Origin: Candidatus Aminicenantota bacterium
GTDB lineage: Bacteria; Acidobacteriota; Aminicenantia; UBA2199
Reading direction: 5' to 3'
Assembly (NCBI GenBank): GCA_016926835.1
Contig: JAFGNX010000008.1
Location: 1-41,582, forward strand
Length of the DNA: 41,582 nucleotides
The notes beneath the pieces were generated by a model. The model ran no database searches, was not told the DNA's origin, and saw only the letters and a program-made list of their open reading frames with translations. Positions within the stretch are counted from its first letter, which is position 1. Every line of letters starts with the position of its first letter. The translations under genes and the position numbers were made by a program. Of this stretch, positions 34,390 through 41,493 are shown piece by piece.

Positions 34390-35532
34390 TTACAGGCTGA
34401 ACTCACAACCGGCCAGGACGGCAAACGGCTTCGCTCCCTGGCTCCACGGTTCTTTCTCACGCTCGTTTTCCACCAGGCCGGTAAAATAGAACCGGGCCTC
34501 AGGCGCAAAACGGTATGACACGCGAGCCACGAGCCGCCGGTTTACACGGTCATGAAGAGTGTTGCCGATTTGCTGGGGATGATACTGTCCGTAATTCAGG
34601 TCGATCAGCCATTTTTTTGCCTGAAAATTGATGCCGCCGTACCAGCCTTTGCCTTTCAGCGGGGTTTTGTATGCGAAAAAGATATCCCGGTAATACAGGC
34701 TTCTTGGCCAGAAAATCTCATCTGCGTCGATGGGTCGATGAAAGCCATACCGGTCCCATACCCATTCACCGAACAGGCGCAATCTGCCAAACCGGAACAT
34801 GAAATCCAGGCCGGTATGATCGTTGTACTGCTTCTGCCATTCCGACCCCATGCCATCATGAATTTTGTGAGATGCGCCGAAGCGCCAGTTGTCGCCATGA
34901 AAACCGATGCGGAAAATCCCCGCTTTTCCAGAATTGGTGTCACGGTTTTCTCCACCGTTTGTGGCCGCGATGTCCAACTCCATGAAGTGGTTTTCCCAAT
35001 GCAGGAAGATCCCTGTTTCCCGCCACAGGATGGCTTCAGCGCGGATGAACGGCGCGGCGAAATTCAAATCGTTTGTAAGGGACTGGAAGTAGACACGGCC
35101 AAACGGGGTCATGGCTTTGCCGATGACTACCCGGAATTGTCCGATATCAAAACGCAGGTTCATCTTCGACATCACCACGGCGTCAACCGCGAAATTGGCC
35201 AGGTAATCGTCCCTGAATTCATCTTTCAGGATGTTTTTGCCAAACGGCTGGTTCAAGAAGAGTTCCGCTTCAACGCTCAGCAGACCCCACTGGTTTTTTT
35301 TGCGCAACTGGAGTCCCAGGGCCGCTTCCGCGCCGAAAGAAAACTCCACGCCGCTCCAGTACAAACGCTGGTCGTTCAAAGTATACGCCCTGAAATCCAA
35401 TTCCAGATCCAGGGTGGTTTGTGAAGACAGGGCGATGGTTTCCTTACCGTGCAGGCATCCGCCGTACAGAATCACGTACAACAGGACGAATCGCACAAGC
35501 AAAGGTTTCCGGGCCACACATTGTGTACGCAT
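34390..35532 (-). CDS. Predicted outer-membrane beta-barrel (porin-like) protein
   Basis: Signal-peptide-like N-terminus, alternating aromatic/polar strands, C-terminal CEFSL. Confidence 0.6.
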   Translation of the reverse strand: MRTQCVARKPLLVRFVLLYVILYGGCLHGKETIALSSQTTLDLELDFRAYTLNDQRLYWSGVEFSFGAEAALGLQLRKKNQWGLLSVEAELFLNQPFGKNILKDEFRDDYLANFAVDAVVMSKMNLRFDIGQFRVVIGKAMTPFGRVYFQSLTNDLNFAAPFIRAEAILWRETGIFLHWENHFMELDIAATNGGENRDTNSGKAGIFRIGFHGDNWRFGASHKIHDGMGSEWQKQYNDHTGLDFMFRFGRLRLFGEWVWDRYGFHRPIDADEIFWPRSLYYRDIFFAYKTPLKGKGWYGGINFQAKKWLIDLNYGQYHPQQIGNTLHDRVNRRLVARVSYRFAPEARFYFTGLVENEREKEPWSQGAKPFAVLAGCEFSL

Positions 35533-35552
35533 GATTCGCTCCAGTTTGCGAC

Positions 35553-36440
35553 TTAGAATATCAGGGATATCCCCCACATCAAATGGTGGGTGACAAACTC
35601 CATGGCCAGATTTCCGGCCCCTCCATAAAAATGCATGTCGTGCAGGTGTGAATAAGAAAACTTGTATTCCAGATAGGCTCCCAGGTGCGGACTGAATTTG
35701 CAGCGCGTGCCGATACCAAACGAAAAATTGAAATTCCGGGGACCGGACCGGTACGCGTATTCACTCCATTCAGGAGCATCCTCCGCCAGTTTCAATTCCA
35801 AATGAGGAAAAGCCGGACCGAACCCGGCGGCGACGTATGGTTGCCAGCGCCCATCCGGTATGGCAATGGTTGGTGACAGCAGCCAACGGTAAGTCACAAT
35901 CAGATTCAGGTGGTTGACTCCATGAGACACGCTCAGGTAATCAATGAACGCGTTTACCGAAAGAGATTGATCCATTGGTTTGCCCTCATAAGTACCGGAA
36001 ACCCGGACCGGCTGGTTCGGGTCGTTTAAAAAGAGTTTATGGTGGGTAAATTCGATTCCCAGTCCGATACGGGGATTGCTGCGAAAAAAGTGGATCAGGC
36101 GATAACCGTAATAGGGTTCCGTAAATGCCTTCAAGGCATCGCTGAAGCGCAGTTGAATCAACGGACGCAGAAACGCATTGGGAATAATGAAATTGTCGGG
36201 GAAAAATGAATCATCTGTGAAATGCACGTCTTGAAGATGCAAGGAGTGGGCATTCCAATCGAGTTGAAGGTCTGAGCGCGTGGGAAAAGACTTGCCCCGA
36301 TTGTATTCAAGGTAATTGAGCGTGGGCCTGGGAGCGGCAATACGGCTGGCGCAACCGCTTACTGCCAGGCCCGCCAGGATGAGTGAGACGGCACGGAATG
36401 GTGAAATCAGGCGCATCCGACATTCTACGGAGAATCCCAT
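35553..36440 (-). CDS. Predicted OmpW/OMP_b-brl-like outer-membrane protein, lipobox-like N-terminus
   Basis: SLILAGLAVSGC; WQPYVAAGFGPAFPHLEL; LGAYLEYKFSYSHLHDM; C-terminal GISLIF. Confidence 0.6.
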   Translation of the reverse strand: MGFSVECRMRLISPFRAVSLILAGLAVSGCASRIAAPRPTLNYLEYNRGKSFPTRSDLQLDWNAHSLHLQDVHFTDDSFFPDNFIIPNAFLRPLIQLRFSDALKAFTEPYYGYRLIHFFRSNPRIGLGIEFTHHKLFLNDPNQPVRVSGTYEGKPMDQSLSVNAFIDYLSVSHGVNHLNLIVTYRWLLSPTIAIPDGRWQPYVAAGFGPAFPHLELKLAEDAPEWSEYAYRSGPRNFNFSFGIGTRCKFSPHLGAYLEYKFSYSHLHDMHFYGGAGNLAMEFVTHHLMWGISLIF

Positions 36441-36482: not shown

Positions 36483-38357
36483 TTACGAATGCATGAATTC
36501 GCGGGCGGCACGTTCCACCCCGGCGGCGTCGAGTTGATACTGGGCCAGCAATTCTGAGCGGCTGGCCGTTACCACGATTTCTTCCGGCACTCCCAGGCAC
36601 AGGAGGCGGCAGCCGCTGCCGTTTCCCTCCAGAATGAGTTCACGGATCAGAGTGGAAAACCCGCCTTTGCGAACACCGTCTTCCAATGTGATGACATGCT
36701 TGATTTGCTGGAGGTGATTCAGGATCAAATCCCTGTCCAGGGGTTTGATAAAGCGCACATCAACCACGGTGGCTTCAATGCCGTTGTTGCGGGACAGGTT
36801 CTGTGCCGCTTTCAGGGCCTGATAAACCAGAGGGCCCACTGCCAGGATCAATAGATCCTTGCCTTGCCGTAGAACTTCACTCTTTCCCAGGGGAATGTCC
36901 CGGAACTGTGCTTCCATGTCCACGCCCTGGCCGGGCTCTTTGGGATAACGGATAAACACGGGGCTTGAGTATGAAAACGCTGAGTGAATCGCGTGTTGCA
37001 GTTCGTTTTCATCCCGGGGCGCGATCAGGACCACGTGGGGCAGCGGTTGCAGAAGGGCGATATCGTAAATCCCCTGGTGGGTGGGGCCGTCGCCGCTCAC
37101 CAGGCCGGCCCGATCGATTCCCACGACTACGGGTATCTTCATCAAAGACAAATCGTGGGTGACCTGGTCCACCGCCCGCTGCAGAAAGGTCGAATACACG
37201 CTGATTACGGGTTTCAGTCCACCGAGCGACAGTCCTCCGGCCATATCGAACATGTACTGCTCCGCGATCCCCACATCGTACACCCTGTCCGGAAATTCCT
37301 TTTGAGAAATATCCAGCCCCGTACCTTCGGGCATGGCGGCGGTAATGGCCACGACATCGTCATCCCGCTGCATGATCTTTTGCACGGTGCGGCCGAATAC
37401 CGTTGAATAAGACGGAGGTGTATGGGCCTTGAGGAATTTGCCGTTGGCGACTTCAAACGGCAGTGAAGAGTGAAAAGAGCTGGGATTTTCTTCCGCAGGC
37501 CGATATCCATGTCCTTTCTCGGTCACAACATGAAGAAGCACGGGATAGTCGTATTTCCGGGCTTCGCGGAGCTCTTTTTCCAGTTCAGCCTGGTTGTGAC
37601 CGTTGACCGGACCGATGTACTTGACACCCAGTTCGTCAAACAGGGAACCGGGGACCATCATGGAACGGATCAGCACCTCGATCTTGCGGGCCAGATCCGC
37701 CATCGATTTACCGATACCGGGAATGCTTTTGAGGATCGCCTGAACCAACTCCTTCAAGCGGATATAGGGGCGGCCGGACACCAGGTAATTGAGATGCTTG
37801 GATATTCCCCCCACATTGGGAGAGATCGACATTTTATTGTCGTTCAAAATGATTATCAGGCGGGGTTTTACCTGGCCGATATGATTCAACGCTTCCAGGG
37901 CCACTCCTCCGGTCAATGCGCCGTCTCCCAGCACGGCCACGATATGATGGTTCTGATTCTGCCGGTCACGGGCCAGCGCCATACCGCCGGCAAAAGCCAG
38001 CGAAGTGGAAGCGTGTCCGGTATTGAGGGAATCGTATTCACTTTCAAATATATCCGGATAACCGCAGAGCCCTCCCTTCTTGCGAATGGAATGGATGCGG
38101 TCACGGCGGCCGGTTACGATTTTATGGGTATAGCACTGGTGGCCGACGTCCCAGATAATCCGGTCTTTCGGCACATCAAAGACGCGGTGCAGGGCCAGGG
38201 TTAATTCCACCACGCCCAGATTGGAGGCCAGGTGACCACCGCTTTTGGACACCACGTCGATCAAAAGATCACGAATCTCAGCGGCCAATTCCTCCAACTC
38301 CTGAAATTCCAGTGTTTTCAGATCATCAGGTCCGTTTATGCGTTCAAGTAAAGGCAT
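36483..38357 (-). CDS. dxs: 1-deoxy-D-xylulose-5-phosphate synthase
   Basis: SKSGGHLASNLGVVELTLALH, IWDVGHQCYTHKIVTGR, GDGALTGGVALEALN, YDVGIAEQ. Confidence 0.97.
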   Translation of the reverse strand: MPLLERINGPDDLKTLEFQELEELAAEIRDLLIDVVSKSGGHLASNLGVVELTLALHRVFDVPKDRIIWDVGHQCYTHKIVTGRRDRIHSIRKKGGLCGYPDIFESEYDSLNTGHASTSLAFAGGMALARDRQNQNHHIVAVLGDGALTGGVALEALNHIGQVKPRLIIILNDNKMSISPNVGGISKHLNYLVSGRPYIRLKELVQAILKSIPGIGKSMADLARKIEVLIRSMMVPGSLFDELGVKYIGPVNGHNQAELEKELREARKYDYPVLLHVVTEKGHGYRPAEENPSSFHSSLPFEVANGKFLKAHTPPSYSTVFGRTVQKIMQRDDDVVAITAAMPEGTGLDISQKEFPDRVYDVGIAEQYMFDMAGGLSLGGLKPVISVYSTFLQRAVDQVTHDLSLMKIPVVVGIDRAGLVSGDGPTHQGIYDIALLQPLPHVVLIAPRDENELQHAIHSAFSYSSPVFIRYPKEPGQGVDMEAQFRDIPLGKSEVLRQGKDLLILAVGPLVYQALKAAQNLSRNNGIEATVVDVRFIKPLDRDLILNHLQQIKHVITLEDGVRKGGFSTLIRELILEGNGSGCRLLCLGVPEEIVVTASRSELLAQYQLDAAGVERAAREFMHS

Positions 38358-39253
38358 CAGTATTCCCTGTAGACCATCATGCGCATCAAGGTCAGGAACG
38401 GCGGAAAAGTGATTCCGGCCCGTTCCAACTCATCCATGGTGATGCGATAGGAACGGTCGATTTCTTTTCGCACGGTATCAATCCCAAAAAACAATGCCGC
38501 ATTGGGGCTGTGATTGTTGTCGTCCTTGTGAAGTTTTTTGCCGACCAGGCTTTCATCTCCCTGAAGATCCAGCAAGTCATCGGCCAGTTGAAAAGCCGTG
38601 CCGATCTCGCTGCCGGCACGATCCAGGGCCCGGATCCGGCTTGCATCCTGGTTCATGAACTCTCCTGTACCGACCATGATGCCGCGAATCAATTCACCCG
38701 TTTTCATGCGGTGGATTTCAGGAATCACCTGCGGGTTTCCGCGAAATTCCAGGTCCAATGCCTGGCCCCCGGCCATGCCGCGAATACCGATGCATGCGGT
38801 AATCAGCCGGATGAAACGGATGAGGACTTGAGCGGGCAATCCGGGTTGAGCCGCGATCTTCTCAAACGCCATGGTCAACAGTGTATCTCCGGCCAGCAGG
38901 GCGATGGCATCGTTGAAACGGCGGTGAACTGTGGGTTTGCCGCGCCGGAAATCATCGTTGTCCATGGCGGGATGATCATCGTGAATCAACGAATAGGTGT
39001 GGATATACTCCATCGCCGTGGCCAGGTCGATATACCGCTCCGGGTCACCGCCCAAAGCATCCACCAGACTCAGCATGATCAGGGGGCGCAACCGTTTTCC
39101 ACGCACATCAAGGGCGTAGTGAACCGCCGCTTCAAGGGTGCCTCTACGGGGATCCAGGTCCCGGGTCAACGCGGTCTGGATCCGGCTTTCCAAGTCAGCA
39201 AAATAATTGCGGTCGAACTCACTCTCATGCCGGTCCATCGGGTTGAGCGTCAT
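38357..39253 (-). CDS. ispA: Polyprenyl synthetase (farnesyl/geranylgeranyl diphosphate synthase)
   Basis: GKRLRPLIMLSLVDALGG; SLIHDDHPAMDNDDFRRGKPTVH; FQLADDLLDLQGD. Confidence 0.93.
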   Translation of the reverse strand: MTLNPMDRHESEFDRNYFADLESRIQTALTRDLDPRRGTLEAAVHYALDVRGKRLRPLIMLSLVDALGGDPERYIDLATAMEYIHTYSLIHDDHPAMDNDDFRRGKPTVHRRFNDAIALLAGDTLLTMAFEKIAAQPGLPAQVLIRFIRLITACIGIRGMAGGQALDLEFRGNPQVIPEIHRMKTGELIRGIMVGTGEFMNQDASRIRALDRAGSEIGTAFQLADDLLDLQGDESLVGKKLHKDDNNHSPNAALFFGIDTVRKEIDRSYRITMDELERAGITFPPFLTLMRMMVYREY

Positions 39254-39285: not shown

Positions 39286-40221
39286 TTATCCCAATTGGCG
39301 CAGGGTTCCTGAACGCAAAACATCCGGTTCAATGAAAATCCGCCGGATCTGGGGATAGGCTCCACGGATATCCCGCTCAAAACCGTTGATCAGGTTGGAT
39401 ATTTCACGCGCGTTCAAACGATCATTGAATTCAAGTTTGGCCGCCAGCAGAATGTCTTCGGGACCAAGATGCAGGGTTCGCAGGGCGATCACGTGGTTCA
39501 CACTGTCATCATCTCCCAGAATGGCTTTTACCCCTTGAATGATTTGCGGGTCCGCCGCCTCCCCCACCAGTAGGGATTTGGTTTCAAGGGCCAGGAATAA
39601 GGCCACCGCAGCCAACAGCAACCCGATCAGGATCGATGCCAGGGCGTCGAATACCAGCCAGCCGGTCAATTGCTCCAGGATCAGGCATACAGCCGCAATG
39701 CCGAGACCGGTCAGGGCTGCCAGATCCTCCATGAACACAACGATCAGTTCGGACTTTTTGGTGCAGCGCAGATAGCGGTACACACTCATGCCGCGGCGTT
39801 CTTTCTGAACCATGCGCCTGGCCTTCATGAAAGCCGCGCCTTCGGCGATAATCGCCACGCCCAGGATGGCGAAGGCGTAATGAATCTGCTGCACCGGCTG
39901 GGGATTCATCCACTTGTGGATCCCCTGCCAGATCGAGTAGATCGATCCGGCGGTAAAAAGCATCATGGCCACGATAAAAGACCAGAAATACAGTTCACCG
40001 GAAAAACCGAAAGGATGAAGTTGATCCGGTTCGCGGCGTCCATTGCGGATTCCCACCAGCAGAAGCACCTGATTCATGGTGTCGGCCATGGAATGGACGG
40101 TCTCGGCCAGTATGGCTGATGAACGCGTCAACAGAAAAACCGCGAATTTCACCACGGCGATTATAAAGTTGGCCCCGAAAGCAAACAGGACCACGGGGAT
40201 GGATGAATCGCGGAATTTCAT
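39286..40221 (-). CDS. Cation diffusion facilitator family transporter
   Basis: SSAILAETVHSMADTMNQVLLLVG; EDLAALTGLGIAAVCLILEQLTG-DALASILIGLLL. Confidence 0.9.
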   Translation of the reverse strand: MKFRDSSIPVVLFAFGANFIIAVVKFAVFLLTRSSAILAETVHSMADTMNQVLLLVGIRNGRREPDQLHPFGFSGELYFWSFIVAMMLFTAGSIYSIWQGIHKWMNPQPVQQIHYAFAILGVAIIAEGAAFMKARRMVQKERRGMSVYRYLRCTKKSELIVVFMEDLAALTGLGIAAVCLILEQLTGWLVFDALASILIGLLLAAVALFLALETKSLLVGEAADPQIIQGVKAILGDDDSVNHVIALRTLHLGPEDILLAAKLEFNDRLNAREISNLINGFERDIRGAYPQIRRIFIEPDVLRSGTLRQLG

Positions 40222-40268: not shown

Positions 40269-40298
40269 TTGACGGCTTCCCCGCCCGGATGGTATAAT
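40269..40298 (+). promoter_or_regulatory. Sigma70-type promoter for the PHP-like gene
   Basis: TTGACG-18 nt-TATAAT, 23 nt before the ATG. Confidence 0.65.
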
Positions 40299-40321: not shown

Positions 40322-41350
40322 ATGCAAAAAAAACTGCGTCTCTCGGCTCTGGTTGTTCTGGTTCTGTTTGCGCTGCTGGTGGTCCCCATCATGCGTTATC
40401 GCAAGGAAGCCAACCTGACATCCCTGCCGTCCAGATTTATCAAGGGGGTGGTGGCTTCCGCGGTCGATCCAACGAAAATGTCTGCGGACAGGGAAACGAT
40501 TTGCCGCGCCGCAAACGAATTGGCGTTGCAGTTTGTCATCTTGTCTCCAGACGGCAACATCGGCGAATCCTTCTCTGACGCTGCATCCTGGTGCAAAAAT
40601 ACCCTGATAATCGAGTCTCCGGCAAAAATCGCCGACATCGACCTGGTCAACCTGTATGACAGCTTGCGGAAAGTGTCCCGGTTTTCCAGAGTGATTCACG
40701 TATCCCGTTACCTCTTCAACTCCAGTTACGCCTTGCTCAGTGCCATCGACCACCCTCGAGATTCCCTGTCACAATGGGATCTGAACTGTCGAACAGGGCG
40801 CAAAACAGGGGTTTTCAGCCTGGGCACTGAGGGCGGTTTGTCATTGCCCGGCGTTACAAAATCCACGCTGCCATCGTTCCGTTCCATGTTTGAGATTCTT
40901 ACCGTGTACGTGCGAATCGACCGGGAACTGGTAAAAGAACCCGGAAAATCGATGGAGATGGTGATGAATGCGGTGAAGGCGGGACATTTCTTTAATGCGA
41001 TTGAAGCCATTGCCGCAGCCAACGGTTTTGACGCCCGTTTTTATCCGGTGGAATCAGCTGACGTGATACAAATGGGAGATATGGATCCTCGTTTCCAGGG
41101 AAAACTGCAGGTTGACACCCCCTTTACCTTCCCCACCCGGGTAATGCTGATTCGCAACGGAGAAAAGGTGGCAACTGCGCCTTCCAGCTCGCGTGGGCGG
41201 TCTGTCTGGGATATTGCAAATCCGGGAATTTATCGCGTGGAAGTCTACGTGCCCGGCAATCATTTCGCAAACTTGCCCTGGATTGTCACCAATCCATTTT
41301 ACCTGGGAACCGCAAACCACTTAGCCAATCGCCCGTCAGGTTCTGAATAA
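40322..41350 (+). CDS. Membrane-anchored PHP-domain-like protein, apparently lacking metal-ligand motifs
   Basis: N-terminal TM; layout matches PHP proteins (DRETICRAANELALQFVILSPDGN; PSFRSMFEILTVYVRIDRELVKEPGKSMEMVMNAVKAGHFFNAIEAIAAANGFDARFY). Confidence 0.6.
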   Translation: MQKKLRLSALVVLVLFALLVVPIMRYRKEANLTSLPSRFIKGVVASAVDPTKMSADRETICRAANELALQFVILSPDGNIGESFSDAASWCKNTLIIESPAKIADIDLVNLYDSLRKVSRFSRVIHVSRYLFNSSYALLSAIDHPRDSLSQWDLNCRTGRKTGVFSLGTEGGLSLPGVTKSTLPSFRSMFEILTVYVRIDRELVKEPGKSMEMVMNAVKAGHFFNAIEAIAAANGFDARFYPVESADVIQMGDMDPRFQGKLQVDTPFTFPTRVMLIRNGEKVATAPSSSRGRSVWDIANPGIYRVEVYVPGNHFANLPWIVTNPFYLGTANHLANRPSGSE

Positions 41351-41445
41351 AGAATAAGGAAGAAGGAATAAAAAGGCACTCCATGGGCCGTTGTGGTGCT
41401 TGTAGAAGATAGAACGTAGAAGGTAGAAAAAAGCATTGAGTTTTG

Positions 41446-41493
41446 CCTTTTTACTTTAAACTTTAGACTTTCAACTTTTCACTTTCCACTTTA
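41446..41493. repeat. ACTTT/CAACTTTTCACTTTCCACTTT intergenic repeat
   Basis: Same family as 181-219 and 434-485. Confidence 0.7.

Follow-up and report, generated by a model that had tools for sequence, protein, structure and literature searches.

Can a protein keep the layout of a PHP phosphoesterase, lose the residues that hold its metal ions and still be maintained by the cell? This question is raised by an open reading frame close to the end of the window, i.e., the whole analysed stretch of 41,582 nucleotides from a Candidatus Aminicenantota bacterium (contig JAFGNX010000008.1). A preliminary description had taken its product for an expressed, membrane-anchored PHP protein with a conserved scaffold and without catalytic activity. 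Here, we compare the gene with its relatives and conclude that it probably encodes a maintained non-catalytic protein, a pseudoenzyme. Table 1 collects the features of the locus.

Table 1. Features of the pseudoenzyme locus and its surroundings (window coordinates).
Feature	Position	Strand	Basis or remark
Sigma-70-like promoter TTGACG-18-TATAAT, TG before second hexamer	40269..40298	+	hexamers kept in G001
PHP-derived pseudoenzyme gene (probable)	40322..41350	+	342 aa; ORF check, ortholog alignment, dN/dS
N-terminal transmembrane anchor, aa 7-24, LSALVVLVLFALLVVPIM	40340..40393	+	sequence; aligns with hydrophobic anchors of relatives
aa 43-56, VVASAVDPTKMSAD, replacing HxHSxFSDG; ligands H, H and D lost	40448..40489	+	alignments
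aa 74-79, LSPDGN, replacing LTDHGxPN; ligand H and neighbouring D lost	40541..40558	+	alignments
Deletion junction, aa 98-105, ESPAKIAD	40613..40636	+	replaces 62-63 residues GGSEFSL..GHL..EPQEAI..ISHP..PWTDW
aa 166-172, SLGTEGG, replacing ALDxHAK; ligands D and H lost	40817..40837	+	alignments
Last PHP-domain unit, conserved, aa 184-236, PSFRSMFEILTVYVR..GHFFNAIEAIAAANGF	40871..41029	+	alignments
Ig-like beta-sandwich, aa 246-329, ending in PWIVTNPFYLG	41057..41308	+	invariant columns, model, Foldseek
GT4 glycosyltransferase, last codons; remainder past contig end	41463..41582	-	window edge
Cation diffusion facilitator (CDF, PF01545), divergent neighbour	39286..40221	-	Pfam; synteny
Polyprenyl synthetase (IspA-like, PF00348), syntenic neighbour	38357..39253	-	Pfam; synteny
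1-deoxy-D-xylulose-5-phosphate synthase (DXS), syntenic neighbour	36483..38357	-	synteny

Gene, promoter and ancestry

The open reading frame, which starts with ATG, is present as had been described, and so is the promoter proposed for it. The latter matches 11 of 12 consensus positions, a grade of which chance alone would give about 1.4 sites across the region scanned, and the start codon follows 23 bp downstream. In the second species of the genus (G001), both hexamers are retained while the spacer has diverged. Promoter-like elements are also found upstream of the intact orthologs in L108 and L111.

Taken alone, the 342-aa protein has no significant match in sequence searches of Pfam, NCBIfam or PDB, and a contig scan of named genomes with the single protein as query yields zero matches. 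With an alignment as query, the same scan gave matches that assign the group to Candidatus Aminicenantes and show its wider kinship to extend to Acidobacteriota, Bdellovibrionota, Bacillota and others. The protein is thus invisible to Pfam and NCBIfam, and its origin is revealed only via synteny and relatives.

Matches were obtained in 46 of the 60 related genomes searched. The genome of the window (G000; 2.05 Mb, 79% complete) carries a single copy of the gene, and the degenerate, deleted form is confined to this species and G001, whose protein is of nearly equal length and 69% identical. Nearly all other genomes of the family that were examined hold intact orthologs with the full set of ligands; these proteins, about 550-600 aa in length, comprise the Pfam PHP domain (PF02811) at the N-terminus and a CIA30/CBM11-like domain at the C-terminus. 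These long relatives align to the window protein over its residues 1-98 and 104-331, and the segment that they carry in between is missing from it. Intact orthologs match the NCBIfam model CehA_McbA_metalo (NF038032) with E-values of 5.6e-16 and 1.9e-13, below its curated cut-off.

A profile of the subfamily finds the solved PHP structures 2anu (3.5e-11) and 3e38 (4e-10). The distant similarity that a profile comparison was to look for was found as well: with hhalign, the alignment of the two degenerate proteins matches distant PHP-family members from Bacillota, Omnitrophota and Syntrophaceae with a probability of 99.1 (E 6.6e-19), a homology limited to residues 141-330. In the tree, the two proteins are nested within the intact rows on a long stem. 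Ortholog alignment, synteny, tree and profile homology all bear out the proposed PHP ancestry, and chance resemblance is ruled out by orthology and synteny. The window gene and an intact, membrane-anchored CehA/McbA-like PHP metallohydrolase of the same Aminicenantes family are orthologs. Since intact orthologs occur in the same gene neighbourhood, a direct comparison is possible.

Loss of the metal site

PHP enzymes hold their metals by nine residues: at the first strand, both His of HxH and an Asp; the His of TDH; then E, H and H; and, towards the C-terminus, the Asp and His of DxH. These positions are nearly invariant across our 62-member alignment, few groups excepted. The window protein retains none of the nine; six are substituted and three deleted. 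At the first strand, A45, A47 and K52 stand for H, H and D; S75-P76-D77 (S75-P76-M77 in G001) occupies the place of TDH, and G168-T169-E170 that of DxH. The GxE, GHL and (A/S)HP ligands are gone with a net deletion of 55 residues: the interval flanked by LLI and G(I/L)E(I/V) spans 62-63 residues in relatives, including GSEFSL..GHL, ISHP and barrel elements, and 8 in the window protein. The three motif replacements were correctly assigned in the preliminary description, with VVASAVDPTKMSAD aligning to YHMHSxFSDG, LSPDGN to LTDHGxPN and SLGTEGG to ALDxHAK of the relatives, and the loss of metal-ligand motifs reported there extends to all nine ligands. G001 shares every ligand loss as well as the internal deletion; since both are common to two species, an assembly error or artefact is excluded.

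Conserved alternative ligands would have spoken against a dead metal site. At most of the former ligand positions, the two species carry unlike residues (A/P at 47, K/N at 52, D/M at 77, E/K at 170), and A45 and G168, which are common to both, are incapable of metal binding, so that no replacement ligand site is conserved there. An enzyme re-tooled around a new catalytic or metal-binding site in another part of the protein, e.g., among C61, C91, C156, H144 and H222, could draw on the identity of these five residues in both species and on a pocket that the deletion could have remodelled. We nevertheless consider this very improbable, as the old ligand places show no conserved acid/His cluster and no known metal motif is evident in the sequence.

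As a side observation on the first-strand motif, two loci (L053 3955-5133 and L054 1270-2430) read HVHSLYSHDS where relatives have HxHSxFSDG. The Asp is present within a longer motif, and this variant escapes simple pattern searches.

Retained and missing parts of the scaffold

The claim of a conserved scaffold holds in part. The PS(Y/F)..MF...YV unit and ANGF are kept; on the other side stand the net deletion of 55 residues and the absence of the C-terminal domain. No remnant of the CIA30/CBM11-like domain was found downstream of the window gene, and a leftover of it is ruled out there by the lack of any match. The C-terminal beta-sandwich with PWIVTNPFYLG is the signature of the subfamily. 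The predicted transmembrane anchor proved sound, residues 7-24 being hydrophobic and aligned to the anchors of relatives. Over the first 40 residues, which include it, the two species share 90% identity, with an omega of 0.09. From the basic N-terminus of the protein and of its relatives, we infer an inner-membrane anchor with a probably periplasmic body.

With the 62-row alignment, AlphaFold2 returns a model with a pLDDT of 90.8 and a pTM of 0.91, weak near residues 50-60 and 75-90; as it depends on the alignment of relatives, this model could score well with an unstable shortened barrel, too. The single-sequence model (pLDDT 38.8) is useless. The alignment-based model predicts a long N-terminal helix, a C-terminal beta-sandwich and, as remaining barrel strands, residues 39-46, 71-75, 94-98, 106-110, 163-168 and 193-198. 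In a Foldseek search against PDB, beta-sandwich domains come first (best E 1.4e-3) and no PHP structure is among the 50 matches listed, which is consistent with, and no proof of, a barrel that is no longer the canonical closed one of seven strands in the alpha/beta fold. A fully conserved scaffold is thus not what we find, the barrel being partly deleted.

Selection on the gene

Between the window gene and its counterpart in G001, dN/dS is 0.23 (bootstrap 0.16-0.33) at a dS of 0.88 over 339 aligned codons, as estimated by Nei-Gojobori counting and not by a codon model. Neighbouring genes range from 0.05 to 0.19 and close pairs of intact orthologs mostly from 0.13 to 0.17, where intact pairs with higher dN/dS were set aside if their open frames extended upstream into non-coding DNA. 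Neither species shows a stop or frameshift in the gene. A pseudogene is rejected on the dN/dS value, and the gene combines lost catalytic residues with purifying selection, a combination expected of a pseudoenzyme. This ratio, the open frame and the conserved promoter uphold the view of a maintained gene.

One could still think of slow decay, in which the enzyme became dispensable and the frame is open only for lack of time. The heavy sequence loss would fit, as would an identity that is the lowest among the compared neighbours, a dN/dS slightly above that of intact orthologs, and the long stem leading to the genus (1.31 in PHP vs 0.34 in DXS and 0.68 in IspA). Such a stem is, however, also expected if constraint changed upon loss of the metal site. 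The dN/dS, with its upper bound of 0.33, was measured after the shared loss and over about 0.9 synonymous substitutions per site, a span in which neither copy acquired a stop or frameshift and in which promoter and N-terminus remained especially conserved. Decay is largely refuted by the dN/dS, and we give it very little credence compared with a maintained non-catalytic protein.

Gene neighbourhood and other PHP proteins

In G001, the GT4 gene is followed by a sugar-nucleotide epimerase and then LptD, which gives the shared layout LptD-epimerase-GT4 / PHP / CDF-IspA-DXS. The LptD, epimerase and GT4 genes lie on one side of PHP in five genomes (G001, G005, G008, G009 and G015), and IspA and DXS on the other side in four (G001, G004, G008 and G014), with both sides present in G001 and G008. 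The CDF gene adjoins PHP in G001, G004 and several more genomes. That LptD/GT4 and DXS/IspA lie close by may be coincidental, because such neighbours are lacking in many relatives.

Three further observations concern the surroundings. The CDF transporter of G001 (L104 10083-10748), which adjoins the PHP gene, is missing about 89 internal residues (169-257 of the window CDF) by an in-frame deletion that leaves an open frame of 222 aa. At 34390-36440 (minus strand), the window carries two adjoining genes for probable outer-membrane beta-barrel proteins, 76-79% identical in G001; the 395-aa member of the pair is without Pfam match. Intergenic stretches of the type ACTTTaaACTTTAGACTTTCAACTTTTCACTTT, short and similar to one another, turn up at multiple sites in both species (window 41396-41490 and 444-518; L104 3177-3446 and 8600-8670).

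A search for an active paralogue, as had been advised, found no intact member of the subfamily in G000 or in G001 (96% complete); as G000 is only 79% complete, such a gene could be missing there. The other PHP proteins of the genome are DnaE, a 285-aa TrpH-like protein and a small PHP protein, the latter two without evident membrane anchor. This bears on a special case of the pseudoenzyme reading, in which the protein would regulate an active PHP paralogue or neighbouring envelope enzymes via hetero-oligomerisation. Such action is documented for many pseudoenzymes of other families (reviewed in PMC11266112), and glycosyltransferase and LPS-export genes are among the neighbours in several genera. 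As no subfamily paralogue was found in either genome, and the rest of the PHP proteins comprise DnaE and two that lack an evident anchor, regulation of an active paralogue becomes less likely, and we regard the regulator as a whole as rather unlikely.

A second loss in Bdellovibrionota

Ten loci (L055, L063, L067, L070, L078, L079, L080, L084, L089 and L091), nearly all labelled Bdellovibrionota, form a clade apart from the pair of the window and G001, with a support of 100/100. They have lost the Asp of SDG, the His of TDH, the His of GHL (mostly replaced by Arg) and the His of DxH, and keep the His of AHP and mostly also the Asp of DxH and one His of HxH. The loci inspected show the order TPR protein, HTH_25 (RodZ-like) protein, PMT_2-type glycosyltransferase, PHP. 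In common with the window protein, this branch shows loss of the metal site, a retained anchor and sandwich, and a glycosyltransferase gene nearby; unlike it, it has no large deletion and a milder loss of ligands, and it may be only partly dead. Judged by alignment and tree, the metal site was lost at least twice in the subfamily, each time with anchor and sandwich kept and a glycosyltransferase gene nearby.

Known systems and possible role

Loss of metal-coordinating residues with a retained, structural domain is known from the PHP domain of the E. coli Pol III alpha subunit (Barros et al. 2013, PMC3666897). In that case the loss is confined to several ligands and leaves the fold nearly intact, and metal binding came back after three point mutations (PMC3666897). 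That domain is part of a polymerase, whereas the window protein stands alone, is membrane-anchored, and has lost all ligands as well as part of the barrel. From its direct ancestor, the CehA/McbA family (NF038032; PF02811), it retains the order of strands and motifs and the first and last barrel units, and it differs in lacking the ligands and 55 barrel residues and in scoring against neither model. In the open literature searched, we found no description of stand-alone PHP pseudoenzymes, by which their absence is not proven. Ligand-less PHP domains are known from replicative polymerases; the case here is a stand-alone membrane PHP protein that has lost its entire metal centre.

The most probable course of events is that the gene of an active CehA/McbA-like PHP metallohydrolase turned into the present one at the same locus. 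The catalytic centre would have been lost in the ancestor of this genus of uncultured Aminicenantes, by the six substitutions and the net deletion within the barrel, and the carbohydrate-binding-like C-terminal domain of the relatives is absent today. Purifying selection would then have kept the anchor, the strands and helices at the start of the barrel, its last unit and the beta-sandwich. At present, the protein might act as a non-catalytic scaffold or ligand-binding partner in the biogenesis of the cell envelope (LPS or glycan), a role for which the evidence is the gene neighbourhood and which we put forward tentatively.

In a more speculative vein, we can imagine that the anchored PHP subfamily shed its metal centre at least twice, in Aminicenantes and in Bdellovibrionota, because its essential work is non-catalytic, such as envelope scaffolding or glycan binding alongside genes of LPS or glycan synthesis and export, and that the barrel in Aminicenantes was cut to a new, smaller fold. 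Together with the second loss in Bdellovibrionota, our findings suggest that this little-studied subfamily may have a non-enzymatic function in the cell envelope, a proposal that is now testable.
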